Source: a virus. Taken from it: a DNA stretch of 21,044 bases. The translations under genes and the position numbers were made by a program. How positions within the stretch are numbered: the first letter of the stretch is position 1; every line of letters begins with the position of its first letter. Of the stretch, positions 4,801 to 19,888 are shown in pieces. The notes beneath the pieces were generated by a model. It did no database searches. It saw only the letters and a list, made by a program, of their open reading frames with translations, and was not told the DNA's origin. The stretch is from the IMG/VR virus record IMGVR_UViG_3300020202_000224, positions 1 to 21,044 of that record. One strand, given 5' to 3'.

Positions 4801-5579
4801 GTACCGCTCGCTGATTGAACCGTGACGGCATTCGTTGTGGAATCGACTTTGACAACAACGAATTCAAGAGCCCTCGACGATGACGTCGCGGATGCGGGTG
4901 CGAGAAGTGTGATGGTTATGGCGCCACCACTCGCATCGGCCAATATGGTTTTGTCCAAAGCGGTCGTTGTATAGTTCCCCATTTTTGTGGTTGTGCCGCT
5001 CGCGATTCCTTTACTCCAGACAGCAGTCTCGTAATACCCCGTGCGAAAGCCCAAGCCGGATGTCCCAAGATCGTATTGGTTTCCCGTGCCTGGAACAATG
5101 GCCCCTGTCGTCATCCGGAACCGCGTGCTTCCCCCCAAGTCGTACCGCAACGTATCCAATCCCGCGAAATGAATTCCTGTATCGGTGTCGCCGCTTGAAT
5201 TGATGTTTGTCACCGAAAGCGTTTTTGTCGCCGAATCAAATTGCAGATCAACCGACGCTCCAAGGGCGCCGTTGTTATTGAATTGAATTTGTTTGTTGGA
5301 GCCGGCGGGAGTTGGGGTAACCGATCCCGGTGAAACCCAAAGCCAGCGGCCGGCCCCGGCAATATTGTTTGGTTTGAAAACTGTGCTCGTGTTGGTTGCG
5401 TCCGTCGAGGATGAGTCATACCGGAACGGCCCGAGACCGTTCGTCAAAAAAACAAATTCATGGACGGGCGGAGCCGTGACTTTTACCAGCGTGGCTGCAT
5501 CGGGATAATGCGGGGTCAGACGCGAGTTCTGCGCAATCGCCGAGACGCAAACAAAAATAAAGAGCAGGATGTTTTTCAT
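1857..5579 (-). CDS. Large tail fibre/tailspike with signal peptide and pectate-lyase-like middle
   Basis: A 1240-residue modular protein. Residues 1-17 look like a Sec signal (K2, a hydrophobic stretch, AIAQ end), unusual for a virion part. Residues about 20-85 match the tailspike head-binding-like module ending in GAGRWLW. Residues 95-130 contain a fibre-shaft motif (KQIQFNNNGALG). Residues 199-288 are the first copy of a domain repeated at 1147-1240. Residues 293-345 (VTDYGAIASDGNSDDAAF) begin a pectate-lyase-type beta-helix running to about 750, possibly a polysaccharide depolymerase. Residues 782-822 carry the fibre motif TSPTFVTPALG...VATTAYV; a glycine hinge lies at 904-909; the C-terminal part includes FTRLNLGGTSSSFPAVARDG, known from other fibres. 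The ATG overlaps the upstream stop (ATGA), and the terminator follows. Enzyme activity is unproven. Confidence 0.85.
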   Translation of the reverse strand: MKNILLFIFVCVSAIAQNSRLTPHYPDAATLVKVTAPPVHEFVFLTNGLGPFRYDSSSTDATNTSTVFKPNNIAGAGRWLWVSPGSVTPTPAGSNKQIQFNNNGALGASVDLQFDSATKTLSVTNINSSGDTDTGIHFAGLDTLRYDLGGSTRFRMTTGAIVPGTGNQYDLGTSGLGFRTGYYETAVWSKGIASGTTTKMGNYTTTALDKTILADASGGAITITLLAPASATSSSRALEFVVVKVDSTTNAVTVQSASGTINGGTRTLSIQWHTETYKSDGSNYYVESEGIRPRGFVTDYGAIASDGNSDDAAFSRATNFLSHIIVPAGTFRFNTNFTLPLGVTLELQRGAILQPGSSTIGLILHGEIQAGPSYHFDISLCGSSTTNILFPALAVGSPITRTKEVWANWWNVSIDNSGDDDGQKLEAFFDSVPAGLETPRRMLPGSYRSARAIDVPTGAQVYAYGVEILYSGTSSSVGLITFPEDSSGQHVRGMAVGSAKTTAGNSVFDLYGFRVRPGCNRFILEDTTAAFFNGAGYYIEAGSNTDAVQSGKIIRGFAFQNRNATNYGGSALHPAFALLITNSVIDLEVNIDANQNDQNVLAINNEGMGALKFIGGTWQNAGQASLNITNAMAFENITSWIYFDGVYHEANGCVNNVYVKDSKLFEVVAGQTANDFSSTLYATNSFHLNNVLSTRISNHYFDHAATYFVVSTNSSKTFIEGGSFTTTGATELTDGQVVAKMNGDINITGRYIGTAGQVKEIDSGGMVEKWVATSGSGNVARVTSPTFVTPALGAATAATPAADDNDTSVATTAYVQTELSDYAPKVDAIFSGSLQIPNGASPTTDAFGEIAGDNNAWASGRGALQIYDGTANTYAVGVLASDTPSNGQVPKWNTGGTITWEDDGGGGGGVAGTMINTSGTGSTGAVPYQSDATLTNYVTKTNFNFFAATNQVAVYDSTTTANTLPASGLLLNNPATASNGNQNHSPVIRRRAQAWKSNATAASQEVGFDDFVLAVQGTSAASATWYLVPWVNGATNANVMTYSSAGVLTTVGAVNAGGELSTGNGNINAQNLGSIRWGSRSRIQSSADGVFELFNNAVNNFTRLNLGGTSSSFPAVARDGATVEIQKADGADGTIASAGARFGIVTKTGNYTTTDTDHTILADASGGAITITLLAPASAFSSPNGGVFIVKKIDATANNVTVQVSGGANMDSFVSIAISTQWAGRQFQSNGTQYYITGSF
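1860..2141 (-). repeat. Tail fibre duplicated domain, copy 2 (C-terminal)
   Basis: This encodes residues 1147-1240 of the fibre: KTGNYTTT, then ILADASGGAITITLLAPASA, then a valine-rich strand (IVKKIDAT) and the end SNGTQYYITGSF. It is clearly homologous to the copy at 4716-4985. Protein identity is high at the start, while the DNA has diverged, so the duplication is not recent. Confidence 0.85.
4716..4985 (-). repeat. Tail fibre duplicated domain, copy 1 (N-terminal third)
   Basis: This encodes residues 199-288 of the fibre: KMGNYTTT, then the same ILADASGGAITITLLAPASA, followed by VVVKVDSTTNAVTVQ and DGSNYYVES. It precedes the beta-helix, whereas copy 2 closes the protein. This suggests a module placed at domain boundaries, perhaps for trimer packing (inference). 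Confidence 0.85.
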
Positions 5580-6452: not shown

Positions 6453-6647
6453 TCAATCGCCCTTCTTTCTTGTTTTGCGATAGGTCAAAAAGATCGTGCA
6501 CGCGATGGAAACGACACTCAGGCAGATCGACGCCACCGCTTGCGCATCCGACAATGTGATCACACCAATCGTCACTGCATTGGGGGCATTAATCTGAAAA
6601 CAATCACGAATGATACTGACCGCCCCGGGGGTTATGTGTGGTTGCAT
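6453..6647 (-). CDS. Small single-pass membrane protein
   Basis: This is a 64-residue product read from ATG 6647, five bases after the stop of the preceding gene. Longer readings of this frame lie inside that gene. The N-terminal half is polar (ITPGAVSIIRDCFQINAPN). Residues about 33-57 (DAQAVASICLSVVSIACTIFLTY) form one likely transmembrane helix, followed by RKTRKKGD. The positive-inside rule predicts the C-terminus in the cytoplasm. There is no recognisable ribosome-binding site, so translation probably depends on coupling. A holin or antiholin partner of the next gene is plausible; the function is not established. Confidence 0.6.
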   Translation of the reverse strand: MQPHITPGAVSIIRDCFQINAPNAVTIGVITLSDAQAVASICLSVVSIACTIFLTYRKTRKKGD

Positions 6648-6651
6648 GGTT

Positions 6652-7167
6652 TTAGAAAATTCGAACCCATAGCTTTCCGAGTCCAGCGGTTGAGTAATCA
6701 CTCGGCCGGACATACCGAACGCCATCATCTGCCTCAGAACTGGTTGCCCATTTAAAAACTGCGTAAGCGACGCTTCCCGTTCCGTCGTCAACAGCGAGAA
6801 CGTCTGCTTTGAAGTTGGTCGAAAGCGATGGATAGGCGCGAAGGTCAGCCAATGTTTCGGCTTGGATGATGATCCTTGTGTTTAGGGCTGAGGCCGCCGC
6901 CATGAGCGTTGAAAGGTCATACGTCCCCGATCCTGTTGGGACGGTGAACGTCTTCGATTTTCGGCCATTGATGATTATGCGCGTGCGCCCTGGAGCGAGA
7001 CGGAAGCCTGCAGGCAGCGATCCGTTTGAATCGGTTGGCACTTCCGTCAGGGCCGGGCCGACAACAAACGAGCCCCCGGAAACTGGAGCATCAAGGTTTT
7101 CGAATTGGACCGCGCCGATGTAGAGGTTTTCGGCCTCGTCTTTGACTGTGCCAGTAATGGTCGGCAT
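6652..7167 (-). CDS. Tail-associated protein with a tailspike head-binding-like C-terminus
   Basis: The 171-residue product has two parts. Residues 1-90 (GTVKDEAENLYIGAVQFENL ... FRLAPGRTRIIINGRKSKTF) look like an immunoglobulin-like or carboxypeptidase-regulatory-like beta sandwich. Residues about 105-171 begin LADLRAYPSL, contain VFKWATSSEADDGVRYVRPS and end GLGKLWVRIF. They match the module that sits at the start of many tailspikes (LRAL ... F-x-W-x-x-x-S-x-x-x-D-D-G ... G-R-W-x-R). The same module seems to open the large fibre at 1857-5579, so this protein may be an adaptor or a short spike on the same tail tip (inference). The start abuts one of the two 22-base repeat gaps and has no clear ribosome-binding site. 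Confidence 0.6.
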   Translation of the reverse strand: MPTITGTVKDEAENLYIGAVQFENLDAPVSGGSFVVGPALTEVPTDSNGSLPAGFRLAPGRTRIIINGRKSKTFTVPTGSGTYDLSTLMAAASALNTRIIIQAETLADLRAYPSLSTNFKADVLAVDDGTGSVAYAVFKWATSSEADDGVRYVRPSDYSTAGLGKLWVRIF

Positions 7168-7202
7168 TCACGGTATGCCTACACCATTTGAAAGGCGTTC
7201 CG

Positions 7203-7224
7203 CTAGAGAGTCGCGCAGGACATT
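7203..7224 (-). repeat. 22-base intergenic repeat, copy B (after glycine-rich tail gene)
   Basis: This is identical over 22 bases to 18136-18157 (core on the minus strand GTCCTGCGCGACTCTC). It starts 6 bases after the TAG of the gene at 7231-8358 and lies in the 63-base gap 7168-7230. Read past the TAG in the same frame, the gap encodes RANVLRDSLAERLSNGVGIP and stops at TGA 7168-7170, directly before the ATG at 7167. In another frame it encodes the six-codon MSCATL-stop. No promoter-like boxes are visible. Confidence 0.9.
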
Positions 7225-7230
7225 CGCGCG

Positions 7231-8358
7231 CTAGTATTCAAGCGCAATTCGCCCGTCTGCACCCGTTCCCGCGCTTGATCCACTATCGGTTCCACCGCCG
7301 CCACCGCCGGGAACAATTCCATTTGTGCCTGCAGCTCCAGCCTTGCGCCCGCCGGGTCCTCCGTTTGGAGACGCCCCGCCTTCCGAGCCGTGGGCATAGT
7401 CGCCTCCATTCTGACCAGTAATCGACCATGATCCTCCGCCAGCGCCGCCAGCGCCGCCCGTAGTCGATGTTGCAGCTGCCCCGCCGTTGCAGGTTATGAG
7501 AGCGCCGAATGATGTGTCGCCCCCAGCGGCTCCTATGGCGCCTCCTGCGCCAATCGTCACGGTGTAGGCCGTTCCAGGGACAACATCGGTCAGCACCTCT
7601 CCGAATCCACCCCCACCTCCGCCCGCGCCATTCGAAGCGCCGCTTCCGAAGCCACCGCCGCCAGCGCCCCACGCACGAACCCTGAGGCGATGAACGCCGG
7701 CAGGGACCGTCCAAGTTGTGCTCGCGCTGATGATTTCCAAGACGGGGATCGTTGTCTGCCTTAATCGCACCTGGAGGTTATCAAACCAAGTGGAGCCCGC
7801 CGTAGTGCTTGCTGTGTGGCAACCTGTAATTCGGAGCTTGGCGTAACGCGCATCACTCGGCGGCGTCGCAAAGTTCGCCATGGCCGTCCATGAAGTTGGA
7901 TTACTGGTCGAATTGTAAAGGCTAGTGGATGGCGTTGCCGATGCTGTCTGATCGGCTTTATACCAATAAAGTTCAACGCGATTCGAAACGCCCGCTGCCG
8001 AGGCTTTCAGCTCCCAAAGAACTTCAACTTGTCGATTCGGCGAGACGGCGAAGAAATCGTTTGAATGAAGAAATCCGCCGCCGTTGCTTGCGCCTCCTGG
8101 CGAAGTGAATTTCGCCGACTTGGCGCCATGACGCTGATCAGTGCTGTCGAGTGTAAATGATCCGCCAGTAAACAGCGTCAACGTCCAACTGTCGGGCGTG
8201 CCGTCCCCGTCGCCGTCATCTTCGAAAGAACCGTTAGCGATCAGCGCGCTCGTGCTGGCCTGGCTAAACAGATAGGTCAAGTTGTCGATGATCGCATCGA
8301 TCAAAGACTTCTTCGTTGCCGCGCCTTGAGTCGGTTTAGTGATTGTTGTCCATGCCAT
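7231..8358 (-). CDS. Glycine-rich tail tip protein with carbohydrate-binding-like domain
   Basis: A 375-residue product with three parts. Residues 1-40 are a short N-terminal segment, probably for tail attachment. Residues 41-198 (ANGSFEDDGDG ... HGAKSAKF ... WFDNLQVR) have the hallmarks of a CBM4/9-like jelly-roll carbohydrate-binding domain. Residues 206-230 (SASTTWTVPAGVHRLRVRAW) lead into a glycine-rich region (GAGGGG, GGGGGG, GGAGGAGGG) ending GADGRIALEY. Such glycine-rich domains form polyglycine-type receptor-binding tips in phage adhesins. The most likely role is host-surface recognition. The predicted end GRIALEY is typical of the family, so the TAG at 7231 appears genuine. The gene follows the tail hub gene by 3 bases. 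Its low-complexity DNA creates long but meaningless overlapping frames. Confidence 0.8.
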   Translation of the reverse strand: MAWTTITKPTQGAATKKSLIDAIIDNLTYLFSQASTSALIANGSFEDDGDGDGTPDSWTLTLFTGGSFTLDSTDQRHGAKSAKFTSPGGASNGGGFLHSNDFFAVSPNRQVEVLWELKASAAGVSNRVELYWYKADQTASATPSTSLYNSTSNPTSWTAMANFATPPSDARYAKLRITGCHTASTTAGSTWFDNLQVRLRQTTIPVLEIISASTTWTVPAGVHRLRVRAWGAGGGGFGSGASNGAGGGGGGFGEVLTDVVPGTAYTVTIGAGGAIGAAGGDTSFGALITCNGGAAATSTTGGAGGAGGGSWSITGQNGGDYAHGSEGGASPNGGPGGRKAGAAGTNGIVPGGGGGGTDSGSSAGTGADGRIALEY

Positions 8359-8361
8359 AGG

Positions 8362-10215
8362 TCACCAGTGTCGAGAGTTCTTAAAGCTTTTTGAATCGGT
8401 CGAAACAGCAAGATCATCGTCGCCGTGGTGATAGCCCGCGGTTTGATCCGCCGTTCGCTTCTCAGCATCTGTCGCTGCCGGATTCCATGCAGATGTTGCA
8501 TCGGAAACCCAGAATCCGAATGAATCGCGCCAGCCGCGACGGTCTCCGCAAATCAATTGGATTCGGTTTTGGTCTAAGTCGTGACGCGCCTCCAAAACCT
8601 CCATAATCTCCGAGATGCCCCGAATATCGTAATCAACTTTGATCTGATCGCCTGGCTGCAAAAGAAATCCTGCCCAAGTGACGGCAAACCTGTAGCGTTT
8701 CAATGGGCGTCCTTCTGTCGTCAAAATCCGCTGTGCGTAGTGCGTCGCGTCGTTTGTGTCGAACAGCGGAACGGTCGTCTCCTTGATTAATTCCGACGCC
8801 GCGTTTGCAATGAACTGGTTTTCGGGAAGCGACGCCTCAACGTTTTGCGTCCAGCTTTCTGCGTAACGCTCGCCATACTTCACGTTGACGCTCGAAAACA
8901 TTTCGGAGGTGTCAACAGTAGTTTGGATCGGGCCGCCAACGATGTCTTCGTCGGTGAACGTTTTATCGACCGCCCCAATCACTTTCGGCTCGAAAACTTC
9001 ATAATGCCATTGACCCGAGGCATTGATGAAAAGGAAAGAGCCGGCAACATTATTGATCTTGGAAATGATCTCGCGCGCCTGGACTGACTGACCAATGTAG
9101 AGAGATGGCTTAAATGACGTTCGACGGATTCCGCCAACGAACGCGCCAACGTCGAGCGCATCAAACGCGGCGTCGAACGCAGCGGAGTTCAGGTTGGCTT
9201 CGCCGATGTAGGCGAGCAAATCTTCAACGATTTCCGAAGCGTTATACATCGGCAATCCATCGCCACTGCGCTTTCGCCCAATGACGTCTACGCATACGCT
9301 TTCGTTGTTCGCCCATGCGGCGCCAAGCGTAAACTCCGCGTTAGCCTCATCCTTCGAAGCGAAAGGAACAGCCGTCCACACATTGTTGGAAAGAATCCGC
9401 GCCTCTGTGATTTCATAAAGCGCATGGTCTGCGATCTTAAATCGCTTGGCGCTGGCATCGACGCATGTCGCCGGGACCGCATAGACGACGCCATAAAGGC
9501 GAGGAATCACCTTGCCGACGTTGACATCAGCAATGTTCGGATAATCCGTTCGGTTGAACGTCGAGAGTGGGATTTTGGTCGAGAGCGCCGCTTTCGGTTC
9601 GACCAGGGACATCTCGAAGCTGCTCACGCTCGCGCGCGTATCCTCAATTTTCCAAACGCCAAACTCTTCATAATCCGCGAAGGCCATCGTCGTTGTGGCC
9701 GTGTCGGCGCCCAGGAAGAACTGAGCGGTTTCCCAATGAAGCTCGTCAAGCTCATCGAAGAATCCGTCGTTATTGATAAGCGAGCAGTTGCCGGTTCCGA
9801 CCTGACTGACGCCGGAGAATCGCGGTTCTATTCGAAGCGAGAGCGCGGGAACACTGTCGAGTCGAGACTCGTAGTATCGATTGTCGACCGTTACCGCGTC
9901 CCCCTTGGAGAAATAAAACCTGCATCGACCGCGAAATGTGTCAGCGAAAAGATTCTGGCCAGTGTCGGCACGCACGTAAACGGTTCCATCGGTATCCTGA
10001 AACCAACCCGCCGCCGCAATTACGGCAGCAATGGACGCGCGGGCAGTCAATGCAGTTGATGCGTTGAAAATGACGGATTCAATTGTGTGCGCGCAGTGCG
10101 TTTTATAGGCGGCTCCCGAATGCAGAACCCACCCTTGCAAAAGAACGCTCCCGGTGATTTGCGCCAAATAACGCAATTTCACGGCGGGCAACGCCAATGC
10201 CTGAACGAGCGTCAT
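8362..10215 (-). CDS. Tail hub / central tail-tip protein
   Basis: This 617-residue product comes between a distal-tail-like gene and the receptor-binding genes, the usual place of the baseplate hub. Visible parts are an N-terminal domain (residues 1-130), then IEPRFSGVSQVGTGNCSLIN (about 127-148) and a middle part with YNASEIVEDLLAYIGEANLN and ISKINNVAGSFLFINASGQW. The C-terminal third (SSVNVKYGERY ... RFAVTWAGFLLQPGDQIKVDYD) matches hub-type proteins of siphoviruses that carry gp27/Tal-like folds. The last 60 residues are polar and probably flexible. No peptidase or lysozyme domain is seen. The ATG overlaps the upstream stop by ATGA. The role is inferred from order and fold-like motifs rather than direct family recognition. 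Confidence 0.7.
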   Translation of the reverse strand: MTLVQALALPAVKLRYLAQITGSVLLQGWVLHSGAAYKTHCAHTIESVIFNASTALTARASIAAVIAAAGWFQDTDGTVYVRADTGQNLFADTFRGRCRFYFSKGDAVTVDNRYYESRLDSVPALSLRIEPRFSGVSQVGTGNCSLINNDGFFDELDELHWETAQFFLGADTATTTMAFADYEEFGVWKIEDTRASVSSFEMSLVEPKAALSTKIPLSTFNRTDYPNIADVNVGKVIPRLYGVVYAVPATCVDASAKRFKIADHALYEITEARILSNNVWTAVPFASKDEANAEFTLGAAWANNESVCVDVIGRKRSGDGLPMYNASEIVEDLLAYIGEANLNSAAFDAAFDALDVGAFVGGIRRTSFKPSLYIGQSVQAREIISKINNVAGSFLFINASGQWHYEVFEPKVIGAVDKTFTDEDIVGGPIQTTVDTSEMFSSVNVKYGERYAESWTQNVEASLPENQFIANAASELIKETTVPLFDTNDATHYAQRILTTEGRPLKRYRFAVTWAGFLLQPGDQIKVDYDIRGISEIMEVLEARHDLDQNRIQLICGDRRGWRDSFGFWVSDATSAWNPAATDAEKRTADQTAGYHHGDDDLAVSTDSKSFKNSRHW

Positions 10216-10976
10216 AGCTGCTCTTTGGCCTCCAATTTGATTTGCCAGCCGAGCGTGGTTTCAACCATGCCGTCAGTGTCACGCGCGGGAAGCTTCTTCA
10301 ATCGGACATAAAACACCTCGCCACTTTCATCGGTGGCGTTTTCATCGGCCTGCAAAAAGAACGGCGTGTGCGCGCCGACTGTTTCGGTGAACGTCTTGAT
10401 GTCCGCAGCCTGAGCCGTGCTAACACCTGACGCGTCGAGCCGAATGTCGCGATATTGACTGCGCTGATTCGTGTAATCCTGGCCGCCTTCTGAAACTTGC
10501 GTTTGGCTGAGATCGATCGGACTGGACGAAAAGCCGTCCCAATCGGGCAGTCCAGTGAACGTGGTATAGGTCCCGAGAAAGATTCGCCCGATGTCGCGCG
10601 AGACGCCTGCGCTCGCCTTCGTAAATTTAATGCGCCAATAACGCGAAGACGTTGATGTGAACGTGAGCAACATGGGGCCGCTGGACCAGGTGAAAGTTCC
10701 GACAAGCACGTCGTTCGCCGCGAAGTTATCTGTGGATTTGCGCAACTGAATCGCCGAATCGCCAGCGGTCAAGGTGTGGGCGAAGATGATTGCCGCGGTT
10801 GCTGCCTGAGAACTTCCGAGATCGATGGTTATATATTCGTCGGCAACGCTCGTTCCGGTTCTCCAGACGCGCGATTTGTGAAAATGCGTGACGTTCGTTA
10901 CCGGCAGCGTCGAAACAGCGGACGATGCGCTGATTGCGCTATAAGCATCGGCGAGATTTGGATAGTAAATTCTCAT
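10212..10976 (-). CDS. Distal-tail-like protein with a galactose-binding-like N-terminal domain
   Basis: The 254-residue product follows the tape measure gene, where distal tail or minor tail proteins lie. Residues about 35-140 (SRVWRTGTSVADEYITIDLG ... IIFAHTL ... SRYWRIKF) look like a discoidin/F5-8C-type jelly roll. The C-terminal 100 residues (YRDIRLDASGVSTAQAADIK ... FYVRLKKLPARD ... WQIKLEAKEQL) are beta-rich and may form the ring that joins tail tube and hub. Carbohydrate binding is possible but unproven. It overlaps the tape measure stop by ATGA and the hub start by ATGA. Confidence 0.65.
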   Translation of the reverse strand: MRIYYPNLADAYSAISASSAVSTLPVTNVTHFHKSRVWRTGTSVADEYITIDLGSSQAATAAIIFAHTLTAGDSAIQLRKSTDNFAANDVLVGTFTWSSGPMLLTFTSTSSRYWRIKFTKASAGVSRDIGRIFLGTYTTFTGLPDWDGFSSSPIDLSQTQVSEGGQDYTNQRSQYRDIRLDASGVSTAQAADIKTFTETVGAHTPFFLQADENATDESGEVFYVRLKKLPARDTDGMVETTLGWQIKLEAKEQL

Positions 10977-12976
10977 ATAACCGAACTTGCCGAGATTATC
11001 AGGCGTCCATCGCGACTCAGCTTGCCGACGCCTTTTCCAAGGATTTCCCCGTCCAGGTAGATCGCGATGGAAGTCACGCCGGCGCCGCGTTCGTCCATGA
11101 ATTGCTGCAAGTCCTGATTTTGGTTTGGCGAAAGCACGCGCTCGCCACGTTGCAGAATGTAAGTGGATTCCTCTGGAACGTTTGTTAGGCCGCCATGCGC
11201 GATGCCCCCCACGGAACCCGCCATCGCAATGGCTGATCCCGCGACCGCATTAACGGCCATCAGCTTGGGGACTGCCGCTCCAGGTACAAGGGCGCCGCCG
11301 AATGTTGCTATCGCCGCAGCCGTCGCCGCCGGAGCCCACGCCGCCGCCAGCGCTGAAGCCGCGCCAACATTGGCCACAACTGCCGCCTTCATGATCCCAA
11401 GCCCGATAGCCGCGAACGCTTTTTCAAGGGCCCATGCGACCGCGCGTTGAGCGATGAAGTTCACAACCATGGCCACCATTTGCTTTCCAAGCGCCTTGAA
11501 CGCCTCGCCGGCCGATTGCGCGCCCATGATAATGGACGTGATGGCGTTGCCTATGCCTTGATACACAGCCATTCCAGCCTGCGCGATGTAGCTGAACGCG
11601 CCGCGGTGCGCTTCCTGGTAAAATGTCATGTAGGCAGAAAGGAATTGTTTCCGCTCGTCAAGACGCTGCAACTCCATTGCTTGCTCGGTTTGTTGCAACG
11701 CCATCAGTCTCGCGATCTGACCTTCAGCATACGCCTCGTCGATCAGCTCCCGCATGGTGGTATATTTCTGATGCAGTTGGGTGATTGCTTCTTCCTCGCC
11801 TTCCTTATTAACGAGAATGTCCCCGTTTGGCATTTGATGTTCGCCGAACTCCGGCGCGGTCGGACCAGCCGCCATCCGCTCCATGGCCTTGTTCCACGAA
11901 TCAGATGCCTCTTTCCCGATGTTCTCGACGCCCTCCTTGAAGACTTCGAATTCGCCCAACGTTGCCGCAACCCCCTCCTTGGCGATCATTTTTGCGTTCT
12001 CGAAATTGCCCTTTAGAAGTTCTTCGATCAGTGCGACGGTTTTACCCAGGCCGGTCCCGATCATTTCCCAGAAGGAAACAAACGTCGCGGCGATGTTGCC
12101 AATCGTTTTGCCGATTCCAACGAAGATGTCGCCTAGCGATTGAACAGTGACCGCGACCAGCTTCGAGACATAAGCCAAAACCTTCAGCGTATCGACAAGA
12201 GTTCCGGTGACGAACTCAATGGCGCTCGTGCGCTTGATCCACTCAACAAAAGATTTGAGCATTTCAGCCGACGCCGGCAGAAACTCCGCAACGACCATGT
12301 TGACGACGCCCTGAGCAATCTTCTTGAGCTTGGTCAGTTGATCGTTGAATTCGCTCGCCGCCTTCGCCGTTTTCGTTGAAATCACCTGCCCGAACATCAG
12401 CGCTTCTGCCTGGGTTTCCCTAATCGCCTGCGCTCCCTGATTCAAGAAGGGAATCAAATCCTGCCCGAGCTTGTCGCCAAAAAGCTTCGTGGCCATCGCG
12501 ACTTTTTCGGCGCCATCTTCCATGCTGGCGAATCGATCTGCGATATTCATCATCGCCTCACCCGCCGAAACAAGCTGGCCATCAGCGTCGCGAACAGACA
12601 GACCAAATTCGTGGAACATCGCCGCAGACTTGCTGCCCGTTTTTTCGCTGTCGTTTAGAAGCTGGGAAAGCTCTTTATAAGACTTCGTGAGCTTTTCAGC
12701 CTGGACATTCGCGAGTTCGCCGACATAAGCGAGCGCAGAGAATTGCTCGACGGTAGTGCCAGCCTTCTCCGCCATCTTCCCCTGTTCAGCCGCCAGATTG
12801 ATGGCCGCTTTGGACATGACGCCAAATGCCGTAACAAAAGTGGCGCCCAGCGTCAGAACGGCAGGCTTGATTTTATCGAGAGACTTCCCGAGATCGTTGA
12901 GGTTGCGAATTGGAGACGTGAAACCATCCTTAGTCTTATCGACCGCGCGCAGGACGATTTCTACAACGTTGGCCAT
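10973..12976 (-). CDS. Tail tape measure protein
   Basis: This 667-residue protein has the expected features of a tape measure protein. The N-terminal helix-rich start (VEIVLRAVDKTKDGFTSPIR) is followed by long coiled-coil stretches (AEKLTKSYKELSQLLNDSEK; LRMALQQTEQ-type heptads later). A strongly hydrophobic alanine/glycine-rich region lies near residues 490-590 (VVNFIAQRAVAWALEKAFAA ... AAAWAPAATAAAIATF). The end LQRGERVLSPNQNQDLQQFM is known from other tape measures. At the usual ratio of about 0.15 nm per residue the tail would be near 100 nm long (inference). It starts 6 bases after the chaperone frame stop and has no visible Shine-Dalgarno sequence. Confidence 0.9.
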   Translation of the reverse strand: MANVVEIVLRAVDKTKDGFTSPIRNLNDLGKSLDKIKPAVLTLGATFVTAFGVMSKAAINLAAEQGKMAEKAGTTVEQFSALAYVGELANVQAEKLTKSYKELSQLLNDSEKTGSKSAAMFHEFGLSVRDADGQLVSAGEAMMNIADRFASMEDGAEKVAMATKLFGDKLGQDLIPFLNQGAQAIRETQAEALMFGQVISTKTAKAASEFNDQLTKLKKIAQGVVNMVVAEFLPASAEMLKSFVEWIKRTSAIEFVTGTLVDTLKVLAYVSKLVAVTVQSLGDIFVGIGKTIGNIAATFVSFWEMIGTGLGKTVALIEELLKGNFENAKMIAKEGVAATLGEFEVFKEGVENIGKEASDSWNKAMERMAAGPTAPEFGEHQMPNGDILVNKEGEEEAITQLHQKYTTMRELIDEAYAEGQIARLMALQQTEQAMELQRLDERKQFLSAYMTFYQEAHRGAFSYIAQAGMAVYQGIGNAITSIIMGAQSAGEAFKALGKQMVAMVVNFIAQRAVAWALEKAFAAIGLGIMKAAVVANVGAASALAAAWAPAATAAAIATFGGALVPGAAVPKLMAVNAVAGSAIAMAGSVGGIAHGGLTNVPEESTYILQRGERVLSPNQNQDLQQFMDERGAGVTSIAIYLDGEILGKGVGKLSRDGRLIISASSVI

Positions 12977-12982
12977 GAATCG

Positions 12983-13195
12983 CTATTTCGCCATTCGCTT
13001 TTCCATCTCGATCCGGTCCGCTTCATTTCCAATCGAACGAATCTTGATGTTGAGCGATAAATCAAACGGACTTTGGTTCAGGAGTTCCGACGGCAGTTTG
13101 TGGTAGCTCTCCGCCAGGCGATGCAGCGCAATCGCCGTTTGCTTGCCCTCCGGACTGTTGAAGAAACGTCGCCGCCGCTTCAACGGCCTCCTTTG
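12983..13195 (-). CDS. Tail assembly chaperone, second frame (gpT-like), expressed by frameshift
   Basis: This frame is open from 13195 (after a TGA at 13196-13198) to its stop at 12983-12985, and it overlaps the end of the gpG-like gene by about 130 bases. Its sequence (ALHRLAESYHKLPSELLNQS, then PFDLSLNIKIRSIGNEADRI) is far more protein-like than the overlapping end of the upstream frame. It resembles the LA-x-x-Y-x-x-LP-S-E pattern of gpT-type extensions. It has no convincing start of its own. It should therefore be made as a C-terminal extension of the upstream product. The relation needs +1 (or -2), not the common -1. A fused protein would have about 190 residues. Confidence 0.75.
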   Translation of the reverse strand, partial: QRRPLKRRRRFFNSPEGKQTAIALHRLAESYHKLPSELLNQSPFDLSLNIKIRSIGNEADRIEMEKRMAK

Positions 13196-13559
13196 TCAGT
13201 CCTGAAAGTTCGTCAATGGCAGCAACAATCTCGTTTGCGTCCTGTTGCGCTAGATCGTCAATCGTAACCTCGTTCGACGCGCATTCATGAAACGGCTTTT
13301 TGACAATGGCCAGCCTCGTCCCGTCCGGATAGGTAATTGGCCCACAGCAATTAGTGAGCTTGATTTCCGCCAAGTGAACCATCGCCTCGATGGCCTTCGT
13401 TTCATCGATATCTTCCGATGATGGTGCGCGGCGCTTTGCCATCTTGGCAAACTGGATAAATAGCGGGGCCGCGCCATTGGCTATGAGATCGCGCTGGCTG
13501 AGGGGACGAATGACGCACGTCGCGCCAGATGAGAGTTTGATCTGCTTGCTCGTTTTCAT
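13062..13559 (-). CDS. Tail assembly chaperone, first frame (gpG-like)
   Basis: This 165-residue product sits between tail tube and tape measure, the standard place of gpG-like chaperones that hold the tape measure protein during tail assembly. The start KTSKQIKLSSGATCVIRPLS fits the family: a short beta part, a helical body with KAIEAMVHLAEIKLTNCCGP, and the acidic NEVTIDDLAQQDANEIVAAI. After residue 138 the 0-frame sequence becomes low in structure (ANGDCAASPGGELPQTAVGT), as expected past a frameshift site. The ATG overlaps the tail tube TAA by one base (TAATG). Confidence 0.8.
   Translation of the reverse strand: MKTSKQIKLSSGATCVIRPLSQRDLIANGAAPLFIQFAKMAKRRAPSSEDIDETKAIEAMVHLAEIKLTNCCGPITYPDGTRLAIVKKPFHECASNEVTIDDLAQQDANEIVAAIDELSGLTKEAVEAAATFLQQSGGQANGDCAASPGGELPQTAVGTPEPKSV
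13145..13166 (-). other. Candidate +1 frameshift sites between the two tail chaperone frames
   Basis: Within the overlap, two places would allow a +1 slip of the P-site tRNA. The first is TTT-C (13166-13163), where tRNA-Phe could move from UUU to UUC. The second is GGG-C (13148-13145), where tRNA-Gly could move from GGG to GGC. Neither can be preferred from sequence alone. No canonical -1 slippery heptamer is seen here. Confidence 0.35.
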
Positions 13560-14506
13560 TAAGCAACTGGTCCAGCGGTGTCATTGATCAGGACAATGTT
13601 GAATTCGTCGCCTTCGGTGGAAGATAAGTAACCCTCGAAACCGAGTTGAATGTGTATGGGTCCGGCGTCGGCAACCGTTGGATCGCCTTCTGTGAATTCG
13701 GCATTGGTCACCGTGATAACAATCGAGCTCGTGCCGCCGTCGGTCCACGTAAAGCCGATTCCGTAATTGTTTTGGTTTCGGAAATGGTTCAGCGCCGTGA
13801 GCGAATCAAATTCGAGCGTGATTTTTCCAGTGACAGAGCGCGCGCCCGCCGGGCCAAATCCCCGCCGTTTGTTGGAGCCAAGAACGTAGCGGTCGGTTGC
13901 CAGGTTGTTGTCGAGAATTAACTCATCCAAACTCTTGATGGTGGTGGCGACACCGTTTATCGCGCACGAGAAGTTGACCCAATCCCAGCCGACAAATGTT
14001 GCAAAAGTCGGGGTGGAGACAGACACGAGAGATGCGTCGCCCTCGCCGACAATCTCGAAAGTCGCATGTAAAAACGCGCCCGGCTCGTGCTTGAAAGTCA
14101 CCTTGGAGATTTGGCAGCCCTCGTAAAGAAAAGAAGATGTCGAACCGATGTTCGATGAATCGCGGTTCACTTCCACCGAAAGGCCGGTCGGAAGCGACCG
14201 CGCAAGCGTGAAAGTGTGCGTGTATGGCCCAGCCCCAGAGGTTGAAACCGCGCCAAGCGCATGCTTGAGCAGGGTCTCCATACCGTTGACCTGCATCTGC
14301 ATCTCAAATGAACCGCCAACGCTTTTCTTTTTCTGGCCTCGGCGGTTTTTCGAACGCCCACGCAGAGACGAACGCGCCTCGCGCCCCTGATCGAGCTTGA
14401 TGCTCTCGCTCAGGAATTCAAAAAACTTCGAACGCGCGACGGCAGTTCCGAATGTCGATTCGGCGCCTACACCGATCCATGAATTGTCTCCAAAACCTTG
14501 TGCCAT
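13559..14506 (-). CDS. Major tail tube protein
   Basis: The 315-residue product is beta-rich and opens DNSWIGVGAESTFGTAVARS, a start shared by many siphovirus tail tube proteins. Further motifs include a basic segment (RSSLRGRSKNRRGQKKK) followed by VGGSFEMQMQVNGMETLLKH and GAGPYTHTFTLARSLPTGLS. In the second half comes SVTGKITLEFDSLTALNHFR. It forms stacked rings of the tail tube, positioned before the chaperone genes as expected. It starts 3 bases after the small upstream gene. Assignment as tail tube is firm by motif and order; the exact family is not searched. Confidence 0.85.
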   Translation of the reverse strand: MAQGFGDNSWIGVGAESTFGTAVARSKFFEFLSESIKLDQGREARSSLRGRSKNRRGQKKKSVGGSFEMQMQVNGMETLLKHALGAVSTSGAGPYTHTFTLARSLPTGLSVEVNRDSSNIGSTSSFLYEGCQISKVTFKHEPGAFLHATFEIVGEGDASLVSVSTPTFATFVGWDWVNFSCAINGVATTIKSLDELILDNNLATDRYVLGSNKRRGFGPAGARSVTGKITLEFDSLTALNHFRNQNNYGIGFTWTDGGTSSIVITVTNAEFTEGDPTVADAGPIHIQLGFEGYLSSTEGDEFNIVLINDTAGPVA

Positions 14507-14509
14507 AAA

Positions 14510-14761
14510 TTATCCGTTCTCTTGTTCGTTAAGCGGCTCCACTTCAGCCGGAGTCGCTGGGTTCTCCGCTTTTGATTCAATAATTTTTTTGATGACGGGA
14601 GAGGTGTCCCAATCGCCAGGAGACTGGAGAGCAACAGCAACAGCAATTTCTTCCGGGACAGAGCAAATATTGTTGCGCGTGAAAGCATAGGAACGCCCGG
14701 AAATCGGGCATTGGATTACGCCGCTCGGGAGAGCGCCGACGTATTTAATTTCCGTAGTCAT
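14510..14761 (-). CDS. Small hypothetical protein between tail terminator and tail tube
   Basis: The 83-residue product reads KYVGALPSGVIQCPISGRSY then AFTRNNICSVPEEIAVAVAL, with a polar acidic end. Small phage proteins with a V-G-x-x-P-S-G then G-R-x-Y-x-F and V-P-x-E-I-A pattern occur near head or tail tube genes. Their role is unknown to me; a structural or chaperone function is an inference. The ATG overlaps the upstream stop (ATGA). Confidence 0.7.
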   Translation of the reverse strand: MTTEIKYVGALPSGVIQCPISGRSYAFTRNNICSVPEEIAVAVALQSPGDWDTSPVIKKIIESKAENPATPAEVEPLNEQENG

Positions 14762-15267
14762 TTCAAAACGTATGGATTGAGGGTTTCCGTGCGATAGCGA
14801 ATTCGAAAGGTAACCTGGGCGGCGCCGACAATTTTTCCGCCTTGCGACAGGTCCATTTGATCTACATCAGCAACCGTCCCGTTGCGCGCCAAAGCGCTTC
14901 CGGATTTTGTGGCAATTGGACCTGCGCTTATCGTTGTGTTTTCGTGCCAATAGCGATCAAGCCCAATGGCGCGAAAGATATCAGCGGTCGCTTTGCGAAG
15001 GTTTTCTGGCGTGGCATCTCCGCTTTTCCAGTGGTGTGTCGCCTTCAACGTCAGTTCATGATCTTCGCCGCTATTGCTTACAGCTGGCTCGGCCGTGTCC
15101 TTGGGGTCCGAAACATCGACTCCGCTTAAAAGCCGCTCCTGAATCGGAATCAAATTCCACTCGGTGACATTCTCCCCGATGTCCGTCTGGAATCCGTTGG
15201 CGGTCGTGATCGCAGCAAAGCGCGCGAGCACTGCGGTAATAATCCGTTGTCGAACAGAGTCAGGCAT
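14758..15267 (-). CDS. Tail terminator / minor tail protein (gpU- or gp10-like)
   Basis: The 169-residue product starts with a helix VRQRIITAVLARFAAITTAN followed by GFQTDIGENVTEW, a start shared by tail terminator proteins. The middle GEDHELTLKATHHWKS and TPENLRKATADIFRAIGLDR are also typical, and the end GKIVGAAQVTFRIRYRTETL forms the closing strand. It is thought to cap the tail tube and join it to the head. Order (after a FII-like protein, before tail tube) agrees. The start overlaps the previous stop as TGATG. Confidence 0.75.
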   Translation of the reverse strand: MPDSVRQRIITAVLARFAAITTANGFQTDIGENVTEWNLIPIQERLLSGVDVSDPKDTAEPAVSNSGEDHELTLKATHHWKSGDATPENLRKATADIFRAIGLDRYWHENTTISAGPIATKSGSALARNGTVADVDQMDLSQGGKIVGAAQVTFRIRYRTETLNPYVLK

Positions 15268-15608
15268 CAGTCTTCAGAGAGAAACAGAACAGCGGTATCC
15301 CCGTACCGAGCGCCTTTCGTGACGTTGTATGTGGAGCCGTCAATTTCGAGCGTCGGCTCGTCGTCGGCAACCTCCCCGGGGATTTCGCCATCTTCATTTT
15401 CAAGGTCTGCCGTTGCGCAAATCGCTACCGGCCCGGTATTGCCGACTTCGTGTTGGAATTGATCGAAGCCGTTGTAGTTTTCATCAAACACAACGTTGAT
15501 GGACTTTGAGGAGCCATCGAACGTTATGGTTGCCTCAACAGCGAAGTCAGACGCTCGGAGAAGGATATCCGAAACGTCCGACTTCAATCTGTCGGTTAGG
15601 TCGGACAC
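15267..15608 (-). CDS. Head-tail attachment protein (gpFII-like)
   Basis: The 113-residue product, read from GTG 15608, has a helix SDLTDRLKSDVSDILLRASD then beta-rich parts: AVEATITFDGSSKSINVVFD, VGNTGPVAICATADLEN, and near the end PTLEIDGSTYNVTKGARYGD with a final VLFLSED. This matches the small gpFII-type joining proteins (a P-V-x-x-C-x-x-D centre and an I-x-G-x-x-Y-x-V end). It lies between capsid genes and the tail terminator, as expected. No ATG start is available closer; the upstream stop is 3 bases away. Confidence 0.7.
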   Translation of the reverse strand: MSDLTDRLKSDVSDILLRASDFAVEATITFDGSSKSINVVFDENYNGFDQFQHEVGNTGPVAICATADLENEDGEIPGEVADDEPTLEIDGSTYNVTKGARYGDTAVLFLSED

Positions 15609-15611
15609 GGT

Positions 15612-16004
15612 TTAAGTCGTGGCTTTTTGACCGATGACGTGTTGCGACAACACGTAGGACGGCGACGTGCCTGCTACGGTGTCAACGAAGCGGATATACC
15701 GCTCACACAGGCGAACTTCGACATTGATGCCTTGCAGGCTGTCAGTGCCGCCGGTTCCGAGAACTTGCGTGAATGTCGCTCCAGTGACATCCGCCCAGCC
15801 GGTCGAACCGTCGGCGGATGTCTGGATTTTTGTGTCCAGCGTGTTATCGGCGTTGCCGGTTCCCTTGGCCGCATACAGCACAGCCATGATGCTTCCGAGG
15901 TATCCTCGAATATCGATGGCAGAGCCGTTTCGGCTTGCGGTGATTGTGGCCGGCTTGGCGCCCGCTATGAGCGTAAGCGTGTTTTTGATGTCGGTGAGGA
16001 TCAT
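15612..16004 (-). CDS. Capsid-adjacent hypothetical protein, possible decoration protein
   Basis: The 130-residue product is beta-rich: SAIDIRGYLGSIMAVLYAAK, then NTLDTKIQTSADGSTGWADV, and ERYIRFVDTVAGTSPSYVLS. Proteins with this layout (G-S-A-I-D, then a T-L-D-x-K-I-Q-x-S-x-D strand and RYIRFV) are common directly after major capsid genes, but I know no proven function. Head decoration or a connector part is plausible. It has the clearest ribosome-binding site of the window (AAAGGAG, 13013 bases left of nothing else like it upstream), consistent with high expression. Confidence 0.7.
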   Translation of the reverse strand: MILTDIKNTLTLIAGAKPATITASRNGSAIDIRGYLGSIMAVLYAAKGTGNADNTLDTKIQTSADGSTGWADVTGATFTQVLGTGGTDSLQGINVEVRLCERYIRFVDTVAGTSPSYVLSQHVIGQKATT

Positions 16005-16205
16005 TTACTTGGCTCCTTTCTTCGCCTCCAGAGCTTTGCGCTCTTCAACGAATTTCAGTTGTTCAGGTGTCGCCTTCGAAATTTCGACGGCCCGATTAGC
16101 GAGAAGAAGATTCGACGCGTTCGCGTTGTCGGCTTCAATCACTTGACCTTTAAAAACCGGATCGCCGGAAATAAAGGTGTCACTGATAATCAGGTATTTT
16201 TTCAT
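16005..16205 (-). CDS. Small hypothetical protein after the major capsid gene
   Basis: The 66-residue product read from ATG 16205 begins KKYLIISDTFISGDPVFKGQ then VIEADNANASNLLLANRAVE and ends in a lysine-rich helix. The pattern (short strand, G-x-x-V-x-x-G-x-V-I-E, N-A-S-N-L-L-x-A-N-R-A) is shared by many small proteins located right after phage capsid genes. No function is proven. A longer reading from 16262 would overlap the capsid gene and is rejected. It starts 4 bases after the capsid stop. Confidence 0.7.
   Translation of the reverse strand: MKKYLIISDTFISGDPVFKGQVIEADNANASNLLLANRAVEISKATPEQLKFVEERKALEAKKGAK
16013..16019 (-). promoter_or_regulatory. Strong ribosome-binding site for the 15612-16004 gene
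   Basis: AAAGGAG on the minus strand lies 8 bases before the ATG at 16004 and inside the end of the preceding gene. Most other genes of the series lack a match of this quality, so this gene may be made in higher amounts. Confidence 0.75.
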
Positions 16206-16209
16206 GTGA

Positions 16210-18099
16210 TTATTGCGCGCCAGAGTCGGTGGAAACAACGAATGAAGCCGGCTGGCGAACAATCGAATCCGTCAACAGGAACATGATCGCGCGGGAAATG
16301 CCGGTAGTCGCGTTCGTGTATGGATCGATTGTCACGTCAAGGCCGTCCCAATCCGCGAGGATCAAGTCGGACCAGTTGCCGAAAATCACCTTGTCGCTGG
16401 CAACTTGGTTTGTCGCGTTGAACGTGTATCCGTTGGCTTCGGACCCTTCCAACAATGTACGGCCCGTGCTGGAAAACTTCTCAACGGTCTTCCACTTGCC
16501 GCGAACCGCTGGCGTCGAGAGCCATGCAATGTTACCCATCAACGCGTTTGCCGTGTCCATTGCGGTTTCAAACGAAACCACCTTGGCCCATGTGGGGGCG
16601 GCGCCGAAAGTAACAGAGCCGATGCCGGTGGTATTTATGATGCCAAGAGGCCGGTCGCCACCGCCGCCGCTGAGCGCAGCCAGGTCTTTGGCGATGGCGA
16701 GAACCTGCATGAGGTCCTGGCGAACGAATGCTTCAACATCGATGCTCGCTTGCTTCAAAAGCTCGCGAGAATATTTCGTGAATGCGCCGAGCTTTTTCGG
16801 CGTCAACGCGATCTGTCCGAAAGACTGATCGGAAGCAGTGACCTCCTCAGTCTCGCCCAGCCAGTAAGCGGTCCCGCCGCCAGCTTGCTTCGGGATCACA
16901 ACGTTCCCGGAAAGACCTGAGAGCACGCGCGCGCCCATTCGAGCAACAAGCGTTTGATTACGCAGAAGCTCAATCATGCTTCCCATCAGGACTTCGGTGC
17001 CCACCAAGAATCCGCCAGCCGTCGCAGTGCCTGCGGTGAGCGTGCGCTGGTTGAACGCGCGCAACTGAAGCGCAAGCGCTTCGACCATGATCGAGTTGAG
17101 GTCTTTCGATTCGGCGAAGCTGCGGCTTGCAACATCGTGAGGAATGAAAAACCCGCGCGCCTCCTGCTTCGTGCGTTTGGCAACCGCGTCGGAGCATTCC
17201 TTCTCAAGGCCGGTCAATTCTTGGCCGCTTGCCCGCGCGTGCAAAGCGCGCACGATGGAATAGTTTCGAATGTCCTTTCGGCCCATGCCGATGTTCGGAT
17301 CGGCTTCAGCCTCTCCAAGTGGTTTCGCCTTGTAGCGCGTTTCGAGGATTTGGGTAACCAGCTTTTCCTGGTCCCAATCTTCAGCAAGCGCGCGTTCAGC
17401 GAGTTCGACGGATTTGTGTTGAACGCCAATCGCGCGGAAGGTTTTTGCTTTTTCAAGCATGGCTTTCCGTTCGGTGGCCCTAATTTCCTCAATTTTGACC
17501 GGAGGATCGGCGACTGCGGAGCCGCCGCCAGGGGCGGCATCAGCAACGTGCAGCAAACGTTGTTTGTTCATATCGGATTCGAGATTTGGTTTGTTACGCC
17601 CCACCCCGACGGTGTTGTCGGCTGGGATTGAAACGATGGAAATTTCGAGTGGCAGCCAGTCAGTGACGCGCGCGGTTACCACACCGCCCGAATCCTTGCT
17701 GGTTTCCACGTCTCGGATTTCGTAACCGACTGACACAAGCGTCCGGATTCCGTCCATGACGTCTTGGAAGATTTCCTGCCCGCGAGCGCTTTTGCTGAAG
17801 CGAACCACTGCGCGACCTTTTCTGTCTTTGGCGATTTCGCACGATTCCACTACGCCGACTTGATCGTCCGGATTGTGATTGACGAGAAGCGCCGCACGAT
17901 TTTTCAGGCGGGAGAGATCGCAGGCCTTATCATCATGAACGAGAACTTCGCGACCAAAATAGCGGTCAACTGGTTCCTCCGAAGAAAACGACAACGGAAC
18001 CGTGCGCTCCTCGGCGTTGATCGCGGATCGGTCCAACGCAAAATCACGCGTGAACTTTTTCCCGAATACTTGCTGACGAATGTTGAGACTATCGCTCAC
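16210..18099 (-). CDS. Fused HK97-type prohead protease and major capsid protein
   Basis: This 629-residue protein joins two functions. Residues about 15-170 form a U35-type prohead protease: LLVNHNPDDQVGVVE with His75, GIRTLVSVGYEI with Ser123, and WLPLEISIVSIPADNTVGVG (148-167). Residues about 200-310 resemble a delta/scaffold segment (helical, charged). Residues about 330-629 are an HK97-fold major capsid protein: TATAGGFLVGTEV, YWLGETEEVTASDQSFGQIA, LGAFTKYSRELLKQASIDVE, then GDRPLGIINTTGIG. The protease likely cuts itself and the scaffold away during head maturation. It starts with GTG 18099, lies 58 bases after the portal stop, and a 5-bp inverted repeat (CTGGC/GCCAG) just precedes the start. 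No separate protease or scaffold gene is present. Confidence 0.9.
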   Translation of the reverse strand: MSDSLNIRQQVFGKKFTRDFALDRSAINAEERTVPLSFSSEEPVDRYFGREVLVHDDKACDLSRLKNRAALLVNHNPDDQVGVVESCEIAKDRKGRAVVRFSKSARGQEIFQDVMDGIRTLVSVGYEIRDVETSKDSGGVVTARVTDWLPLEISIVSIPADNTVGVGRNKPNLESDMNKQRLLHVADAAPGGGSAVADPPVKIEEIRATERKAMLEKAKTFRAIGVQHKSVELAERALAEDWDQEKLVTQILETRYKAKPLGEAEADPNIGMGRKDIRNYSIVRALHARASGQELTGLEKECSDAVAKRTKQEARGFFIPHDVASRSFAESKDLNSIMVEALALQLRAFNQRTLTAGTATAGGFLVGTEVLMGSMIELLRNQTLVARMGARVLSGLSGNVVIPKQAGGGTAYWLGETEEVTASDQSFGQIALTPKKLGAFTKYSRELLKQASIDVEAFVRQDLMQVLAIAKDLAALSGGGGDRPLGIINTTGIGSVTFGAAPTWAKVVSFETAMDTANALMGNIAWLSTPAVRGKWKTVEKFSSTGRTLLEGSEANGYTFNATNQVASDKVIFGNWSDLILADWDGLDVTIDPYTNATTGISRAIMFLLTDSIVRQPASFVVSTDSGAQ

Positions 18100-18135
18100 C
18101 TGCTGGCAGAGATACGCCAGTACGATGGGAAAAAT

Positions 18136-18157
18136 CTAGAGAGTCGCGCAGGACATT
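18136..18157 (-). repeat. 22-base intergenic repeat, copy A (after portal gene)
   Basis: This is identical over 22 bases to 7203-7224. It begins immediately after the portal TAA (18158-18160) in the 58-base gap 18100-18157. Read past the TAA in the portal frame it encodes NVLRDSLDFSHRTGVSLPAG then ER and stops at TAG 18089-18091, 11 bases inside the next gene. In another frame it encodes MSCATL-stop. The rest of the gap shares no further similarity with copy B and holds a weak hairpin (CTGGC-8-GCCAG). Confidence 0.9.
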
Positions 18158-19888
18158 TTAAGGCGCAGGTTTTTCCGTGGGCGCTGCTTTTGTCGCAGGC
18201 TTCGGCGGTTCGTCCACCTGAAGCGTGATCGGACGCCGCGCCCCGCCATCCTCCTTCCATGCCTTAACGGCCTCTGGCGACATTGGCGGAAGGTTGAATT
18301 CGTAGCGGATTCGCTCCTCGTCCTTTTGTGTTGGCGTGAGTAATCCGGCACGACCCAACACCCCAACCACATCGGCCCGGTTTCTCGTTTTCTCCAGATC
18401 GAAATCAAGTTGATAATCGCGATCGTTTTTAACGTCACTCTCTTGCTGCGCGCGAACAGTATCTGGGTCTTTTCCTTGACGCGAAATGATTTCAGAGCGC
18501 GACGAGAACCCGGATGCGACAGATTCCTTTGCGGCTTTGACTTCTTTTTCTGGATCAACCCAAGGCCAACCTCGAGGGACAAATTTCGGCTGGTTGAACT
18601 TTTCGAATTTATCGACTGGCAGCGGCTTGCCATTGACTAGAATTGCCCCAACTAAAAGGGCCATCTTTAACCACTCCGAAAAAATCTTTTCCGCTACAAC
18701 TTCGATAAAATCGCGCTGGACCGCCATGAATGCGTCCTGCGATTCGAGAAATGCCGCGCGCAGGCTTGAGTAATTCACGCTCTCATAATCCCCGGCGAGT
18801 TGGTTGTAGTTTACCCCCGGCACCCCAGCAGCCATCGTCCGAACGCGCGCTTTGATGAAATAGGCGTAGAGCTCGTGCGGGTATTTGACGTCAAACTGCG
18901 TTACATCTATCCCGCGCGGCAGTTTAACCATTTGCCCAGGGGAAACCTCCATCATCGTGTTCCCGTCTTCATCTTCGCCATCACCGATGTAGTGCCCGTT
19001 GGCATCGGGTAGTTCTTTCATGAACCCAGCATTCGCCGCCCCAAACTGTGCCGCGGTCATAGCGGCTTCGTCGTAGGATTCAAGCATCCGCATACCCTTC
19101 ATCGGAGCATGAAACCAAGGCACGCCGCGCACTTCGTCATCTTCGCCAAGCGGCATGAATTTATGGATGATGTCAGCAGCGTCCACGCGCTCATGCTTCG
19201 TGAAAGTGGAAAACGAATCGTATGGGTTTTCCTTGCGAATGTAATACGCGACAACCCGGCCCCATGAATTTCGCTCGATGCCCATTCGGATTTTATTGCC
19301 GTTTGGGAGGTTGTTGTTCAACTCCTCGTCAACGCAATCCGGATTGAGCATTTGAAGCGCAAAGCTGAACTTGTTATCGAAGCCGCGCACCATTCTGATG
19401 AAGACTTCGCCAGCTTGCGGCTCGCACCGAGCGCATGTCCGCTGAACATGCCACCACGAGCGCGAGCCTTTGACTGTGCAATTTTCCATCTTGCCCCACT
19501 CGTTCCATGCATCCCTGATCGCGTCATTGGCGAGGATGTCAAGCGACTGATTACTGTCGCGCGCGAGAACGGTCAGGCTGAGTCCCTGCGCTCCGATAAC
19601 ATTGTCCTGGTGAAGCTGTATGATCTTCTTTGCGTATTCGTTATCGTCGACCAGTTGGCGACAGCGAGAACGCATTGCCTTTAGGCTTCGTTGAATTTTG
19701 TCGTTGCGTGTCGTTGTGCCTGGGGCCCAATCCGAAAGCAATCGCCCGGTCTGCGCTCCCGCGAAAGTTCTCGCCTTGCGCTTCGGCGGCTCCAGCGGCG
19801 CAGCCTGCGAAAATGTCACGCTGTGCGTAGCGCCGTAGCTGATGCTCATCGACAAATCGGGGCTTCTTTTTGATGGCCAAAGTTTCAT
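18158..19888 (-). CDS. Portal protein (lambda gpB-like)
   Basis: The 576-residue product fits the lambda-type portal family. Residues 73-105 read RSRCRQLVDDNEYAKKIIQL then HQDNVIGAQGLSL, the family's hallmark segment. Further on come DAWNEWGKMENC, a cysteine-rich stretch around QRTCARCEPQAGEVFIRMV, and LNPDCVDEELN. After that are DIIHKFMPLGEDDEVRGVPW and MAAGVPGVNYNQLAGDYESV, the typical C-terminal part of the family. It forms the dodecameric ring at the capsid vertex through which DNA passes and to which the terminase docks. The C-terminal 40 residues are proline-rich (PPKPATKAAPTEKPAP). It overlaps the gpW-like gene by ATGA. Confidence 0.92.
   Translation of the reverse strand: MKLWPSKRSPDLSMSISYGATHSVTFSQAAPLEPPKRKARTFAGAQTGRLLSDWAPGTTTRNDKIQRSLKAMRSRCRQLVDDNEYAKKIIQLHQDNVIGAQGLSLTVLARDSNQSLDILANDAIRDAWNEWGKMENCTVKGSRSWWHVQRTCARCEPQAGEVFIRMVRGFDNKFSFALQMLNPDCVDEELNNNLPNGNKIRMGIERNSWGRVVAYYIRKENPYDSFSTFTKHERVDAADIIHKFMPLGEDDEVRGVPWFHAPMKGMRMLESYDEAAMTAAQFGAANAGFMKELPDANGHYIGDGEDEDGNTMMEVSPGQMVKLPRGIDVTQFDVKYPHELYAYFIKARVRTMAAGVPGVNYNQLAGDYESVNYSSLRAAFLESQDAFMAVQRDFIEVVAEKIFSEWLKMALLVGAILVNGKPLPVDKFEKFNQPKFVPRGWPWVDPEKEVKAAKESVASGFSSRSEIISRQGKDPDTVRAQQESDVKNDRDYQLDFDLEKTRNRADVVGVLGRAGLLTPTQKDEERIRYEFNLPPMSPEAVKAWKEDGGARRPITLQVDEPPKPATKAAPTEKPAP

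Follow-up and report, generated by a model that had tools for sequence, protein, structure and literature searches.

The exact 22-bp sequence AATGTCCTGCGCGACTCTCTAG occurs twice, in the same orientation, in the late gene series of an uncultured tailed phage, once in front of the major head protein (MCP) gene and once in front of the gene g15. We tentatively read it, with confidence slightly below even, as part of a two-copy cis-acting element that would restart expression of the MCP and of the cassette from g15 to lysis, most likely as an internal late promoter, or the site of an activator, followed by a leader. If functional, the element marks where the phage splits its late genes into units under separate control, and it provides a short sequence handle for finding the phage's regulator; by itself, the 22-mer element reveals no new mechanism.

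Two gaps in the late gene series and the repeat within them

The window analysed here is the whole IMG/VR record IMGVR_UViG_3300020202_000224, 21,044 bases in length. It carries the late genes of a tailed phage, mainly on the minus strand, in the order TerL (partial), head-tail joining, portal, MCP/protease, small head and tail genes, tape measure, tail proteins, fibre, g15, a holin-like gene, small membrane and lipoprotein-like genes (labels assigned by eye) and a 1240-aa protein. Gaps were looked for at all junctions between the TerL fragment and the 1240-aa gene. The original prediction had stated that this series contains only two real gaps, and this was confirmed: two further apparent gaps proved to be filled, and the other junctions range from −4 to about +6 bases. 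The apparent gap at 16005–16209 is filled by a 66-aa gene (16005–16205), and that at 12977–13061 is covered by an ORF at 12983–13183. This ORF overlaps g10 (13062–13559) immediately ahead of the tape measure gene, where the G/GT chaperone frameshift pair is usually found, and judging by gene order it is probably the tail assembly chaperone's frameshift partner.

The first of the two gaps (18100–18157, minus strand, 58 nt) separates the portal and MCP genes, and the second (7168–7230, minus strand, 63 nt) separates the tail fibre gene and g15; each corresponds to one whole presumed element. The gene upstream of the first gap had been taken for the terminase. It instead encodes the portal protein (18158–19888, minus strand; phrog_21, E 2.3e-95), and the downstream gene encodes the major head protein with a protease domain (16210–18099, minus strand; phrog_617, E 4.8e-139). 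The second gap follows the tail fibre gene (7231–8358, minus strand; phrog_863 and PF21722), whose product has a glycine-rich C-terminal domain. The first gene past this gap, g15 (6652–7167, minus strand), encodes a 171-aa protein without a family match, which we call tail-type, and is followed by the gene for a 64-aa holin-like protein (6453–6647, minus strand) with weak matches only (PF23987, E 0.16; phrog_1350, E 0.19). The cassette starting at g15 likely ends in lysis genes. The 1240-aa protein (1857–5579, minus strand) has a signal-like N-terminal stretch and no family, and over a short part of its length (35% over 108 aa) it resembles a terminase-adjacent gene in L045. Beyond it, a PglD/NeuD-like hexapeptide acyltransferase gene (1119–1784) lies on the plus strand, convergent with the late genes. 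It could be a gene that the phage carries for sugar modification, or it could belong to host DNA next to a prophage.

Most of the late genes lack a Shine-Dalgarno-like sequence, and they overlap or adjoin one another, which suggests that they rely on coupled translation. The two gaps would therefore be the places where translational coupling breaks and an independent start is needed, and an element for a fresh start, of either transcription or translation, is what one would expect at both.

Copy 1 of the repeat (18136–18157, minus strand) begins directly past the portal stop codon and ends 36 nt before the GTG start codon of the MCP gene. Copy 2 (7203–7224, minus strand) ends 35 nt before the ATG of g15 and lies 6 nt past the tail-fibre stop codon, so that the predicted placement right after the upstream stop codon holds for copy 1 but not for copy 2. 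Both copies are exact and lie on the minus (coding) strand. The view that a chance match is negligible was also borne out: allowing up to 3 mismatches gave 2 matches, where shuffles predicted 0.00. After this repeat, the longest exact direct repeat within the 21,044 bases measures 14 nt. The block is asymmetric and uninterrupted. A third copy was considered at 20627–20648 inside the TerL fragment, and was rejected because it has 5 mismatches, a score equalled by 6.5% of random 22-mers of the window. An assembly artefact is unlikely as the source of the repeat: at a chimeric join the overlap has the length of the final k-mer, which normally exceeds 22.

The repeat might in principle be coding, either by read-through of the stop codon (NVLRDSL... 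in both gaps) or as a 6-codon leader peptide, ATGTCCTGCGCGACTCTCTAG (MSCATL*). The frame of the upstream gene is indeed open across both gaps and ends beside the following start codon, and the mini-ORF fills the repeat except for its first A, the ends of the two coinciding. We give this reading almost no credence, since the two stop codons differ (TAA and TAG), the glycine-rich domain already closes the fibre, open frames this short often arise by chance, and the block shows no synonymous variation.

Spacers, a possible hairpin and possible control at the RNA level

The sequences flanking the repeat in the two gaps had been described as otherwise unrelated. This was too strong, given the distances of 36 and 35 nt to the start codon, the motif TGGYGTA at an identical offset in both spacers and a stem possible in the same register. 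The spacers agree at 14 of 35 positions (P 0.03). Identity is 22/22 in the block but 13/33 in the aligned element outside it, which suggests selection on the block rather than a wholesale recent duplication. On the other hand, an exact block with diverged flanks could also result from a short, recent template switch or recombination by which 22 bp of one gap were copied into the other with no function, as neutral or selfish copying. The 6-bp direct repeat CTAGCG that flanks copy 2, and the lack of the 22-mer in all of the relatives examined, are in line with such an event. It would leave unexplained why both copies are on the same strand, occupy both of the only gaps, stand at near-equal distances from the start codon and are followed by a stem in the same register, and we consider it unlikely.

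A 6-bp stem can be drawn in both spacers, pairing offsets 16–21 with 28–33 after the repeat. In gap 1 the possible hairpin CUGGCG-UAUCUC-UGCCAG (18103–18120, minus strand) ends 3 nt before the MCP GTG and is the most stable local fold. Its counterpart in gap 2, AUGGUG-UAGGCA-UACCGU (7170–7187, minus strand), ends 2 nt before the g15 ATG. The stem differs between the copies by two double-sided changes, C-G/A-U and C-G/U-A. In a test made post hoc, shuffled pairs gave a common-register stem of this length in 0.08% of cases and random genome pairs in 0.075%. In gap 2 the shared-register hairpin (−6.0 kcal/mol) competes with a stronger alternative fold (−12.3 kcal/mol). The folding energy of neither gap was significant against shuffles (z −1.06 and −1.25), and no Rfam covariance model matched in the window. 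For these reasons the hairpin at both gaps is only suggestive.

The constant start distance and the possible hairpin make control at the RNA level the strongest rival to the promoter reading. The 22 nt and the hairpin would then act in a polycistronic mRNA, with no promoter, and would set the expression of capsid and lysis genes as a translational operator, a re-initiation element or a site of mRNA processing. Such a role would account for the 35–36 nt between the 22-mer and the start codon and for a stem with compensatory changes that adjoins it, and it fits a genome in which most genes have no Shine-Dalgarno sequence and neither gap has a sigma-70-like promoter. In both copies, moreover, the GCGCG of the block has a possible pairing partner in an upstream GCGC (chance 9% each). 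The ordinary folding energies, the lack of an Rfam match and the stronger competing fold of gap 2 count against it, and an unbroken, invariant block of 22 nt is more typical of a site recognised as DNA. We regard RNA-level control as possible though rather unlikely. A two-part late control, in which a phage factor would use the 22-nt recognition block together with the start-codon hairpin to restart the capsid and lysis units amid Shine-Dalgarno-free coupled translation, seems quite unlikely.

The repeat as a proposed late promoter or activator site

In the promoter reading, the presumed element is about 57 nt long and would have three parts: the 22-bp block, asymmetric and invariant; a variable spacer of 15 nt; and, next to the start codon, a segment with the possible hairpin. 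The block would be read as DNA, either as an internal late promoter or as the site of a phage-encoded late activator. Transcription may then restart just upstream of the MCP gene and of the cassette from g15 to lysis, and the new transcripts would have the other 35–36 nt as their leader. The exactness of the two copies, their shared strand, their location in the only two unfilled gaps, the distances of 36 and 35 nt to the start codons and the stem in a common register all argue for this reading. A capsid unit and a unit of tail-type, holin-like and small genes are often expressed separately by phages. The points against it are that only two copies exist, that the relatives have no homologous element and many of them no portal-MCP gap, and that the hairpin is not the most stable fold of gap 2 and its stem was tested post hoc.

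No sigma-70-like pair of −35 and −10 hexamers with 16–18 nt spacing was found at either gap, nor is an AT-rich, −10-like sequence conserved at a fixed position. The repeat thus does not qualify as a sigma-70-type promoter, and its recognition would call for a factor of the phage or an alternative one. The late promoters of phages Mu and P2 offer a parallel: a few promoters placed before lysis and structural genes depend on a phage activator (C protein in Mu, Ogr in P2) that reads its own site. The two copies described here resemble them in number and location, but the Mu and P2 sites are dyad or bipartite with a host −10, whereas the present block is unbroken and non-dyad, with no evident −10.

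A promoter of a single-subunit, T7-type phage RNA polymerase would be contiguous and exact, as T7 class III promoters are, and T7 has a class III-type promoter before its capsid gene. The segment CGACTCTCTA matches the −12 to −3 region of the T7 promoter (CGACTCACTA) at 9 of 10 positions. However, the upstream part is GC-rich, not AT-rich, and the expected G at +1 is not shared (T in copy 1, G in copy 2), so that the contiguous promoter of about 23 bp with a CACTATA-type core and G at +1 is not found here. A search of 15 related records for the polymerase family PF00940 gave no match, and the control was silent too. We judge this reading extremely unlikely.

In being confined to gaps, present in one orientation and placed next to start codons, the 22-mer fits the general kind of short, oriented, phage-specific intergenic repeats that act as cis-regulatory elements, and the units behind it would be regulated separately. 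In the halovirus HF2, intergenic gaps hold class I repeats (58 bp) and two class II repeats (29 bp), and these were shown to carry promoters, nine of nine cloned IRs having promoter activity (PMC8707807). The likeness is that both systems have near-identical short repeats confined to gaps, with class II also in two copies and none elsewhere in its genome. The HF2 repeats differ in having AT-rich promoter motifs, a position conserved throughout the genus and reporter tests (PMC8707807), whereas the present block is GC-rich, comes from one genome and is known from sequence alone.

The SAS and ESAS of cluster K mycobacteriophages are likewise short, asymmetric, mostly in one orientation and at a near-constant distance upstream of start codons; they are absent or rare in the host, and contain inverted repeats in part (ESAS) (PMC3203893). 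The SAS, however, are 13 bp long, typically 3–7 bp from the start codon, built around a ribosome-binding core and far more numerous, mostly at non-structural genes (PMC3203893). The present repeat has 22 bp, 35–36 nt to the start, no Shine-Dalgarno sequence and two copies at late genes, and neither the 13-bp GGGATAGGAGCCC nor a Shine-Dalgarno core 3–7 bp before the start was found, so that the specific SAS definition fails as the sigma-70 one does.

A further parallel is given by the stoperators of cluster A phages, which are asymmetric, phage-specific repressor sites, mostly in one orientation relative to transcription (PMC6550527). By analogy, a phage repressor might block transcription at the late-gene gaps in the prophage state, and the 22-mer is short, asymmetric, in one orientation and located in gaps. 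Stoperators are 13 bp long and occur in many copies, with repressor and lysogeny demonstrated (PMC6550527), while the present 22-nt repeat has only two copies in 21 kb, and no repressor or integrase gene was seen in the window, which is half a genome. We therefore consider a stoperator-like operator highly unlikely.

Searches in relatives, host genomes and databases

The original prediction had proposed searching for the 22-mer in this genome, in related phages and in hosts. There was no further copy in the window. As an exact 18-mer, it was absent from all other IMG/VR viral contigs. The 16-mers from its two ends gave 1 and 7 matches, one copy per contig each, which we took as chance; the single match (L109) lies in a stretch that looks coding by eye, and the seven lie inside long open frames on the opposite strand. 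In the first 26 relative loci nothing was found within 5 mismatches, and the whole records of these 26 relatives contained no match at up to 3 mismatches in 18. A covariance model gave no hit below E 0.3 over 1.29 Mb except its two training copies (this was model R2; R1 was set aside because its alignment gapped the stem). The gap DNA had only chance-level matches in 50,697 phage records. Closer relatives were sought by the portal, tape measure and g15 proteins and none was found; the best MCP relatives are about 50–52% identical, too distant to apply strictly the refutation that the original prediction had tied to absence from close relatives. The portal-MCP gap is missing in many relatives, and the gaps of others hold unrelated content. 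One of them, L048 (MCP 48%), has a gap with some likeness to copy 1 (GACTCT-TA, GGCGTAT), which was not significant (P 0.02–0.035, with about 37 junctions compared). This portal-MCP gap (L048, 3483–3547) contains TTGACA and a strong hairpin (UGACUCU...AGAGUCA) that ends 2 nt before the MCP start codon.

The sole relative of the MCP in the genome collection is on a Verrucomicrobiota contig (36%). None of 388 Verrucomicrobiota genomes carried the 22-mer when 1 mismatch in 18 was allowed, and the idea of a dispersed host repeat was dropped on this result, the host of the phage itself not being established. A positive control, the gap repeat of the related phage L016, was found in 9 of 59 Verrucomicrobiota genomes. 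Among the explanations first offered, a regulatory or RNA-level element is best supported, whereas a scar of a homing or mobile element has no support, because no convincing homing gene, no further copy in the window and none in the 388 genomes was found. The gene on the plus strand at 9–392, which had been called NUMOD-type, had no Pfam match, and its HNH endonuclease match in PHROGs was sub-threshold (E 0.06).

Other repeats that recur within the same record were seen in the gaps around the MCP gene of L016 (20038, 9425), L003 (5464, 7781) and L054 (5964, 6588). That of L016, ATCCGCAGATTACGCAGATT, is the dispersed repeat of Verrucomicrobiota genomes used as the control above, and host-type intergenic repeats thus occur in related phage genomes.
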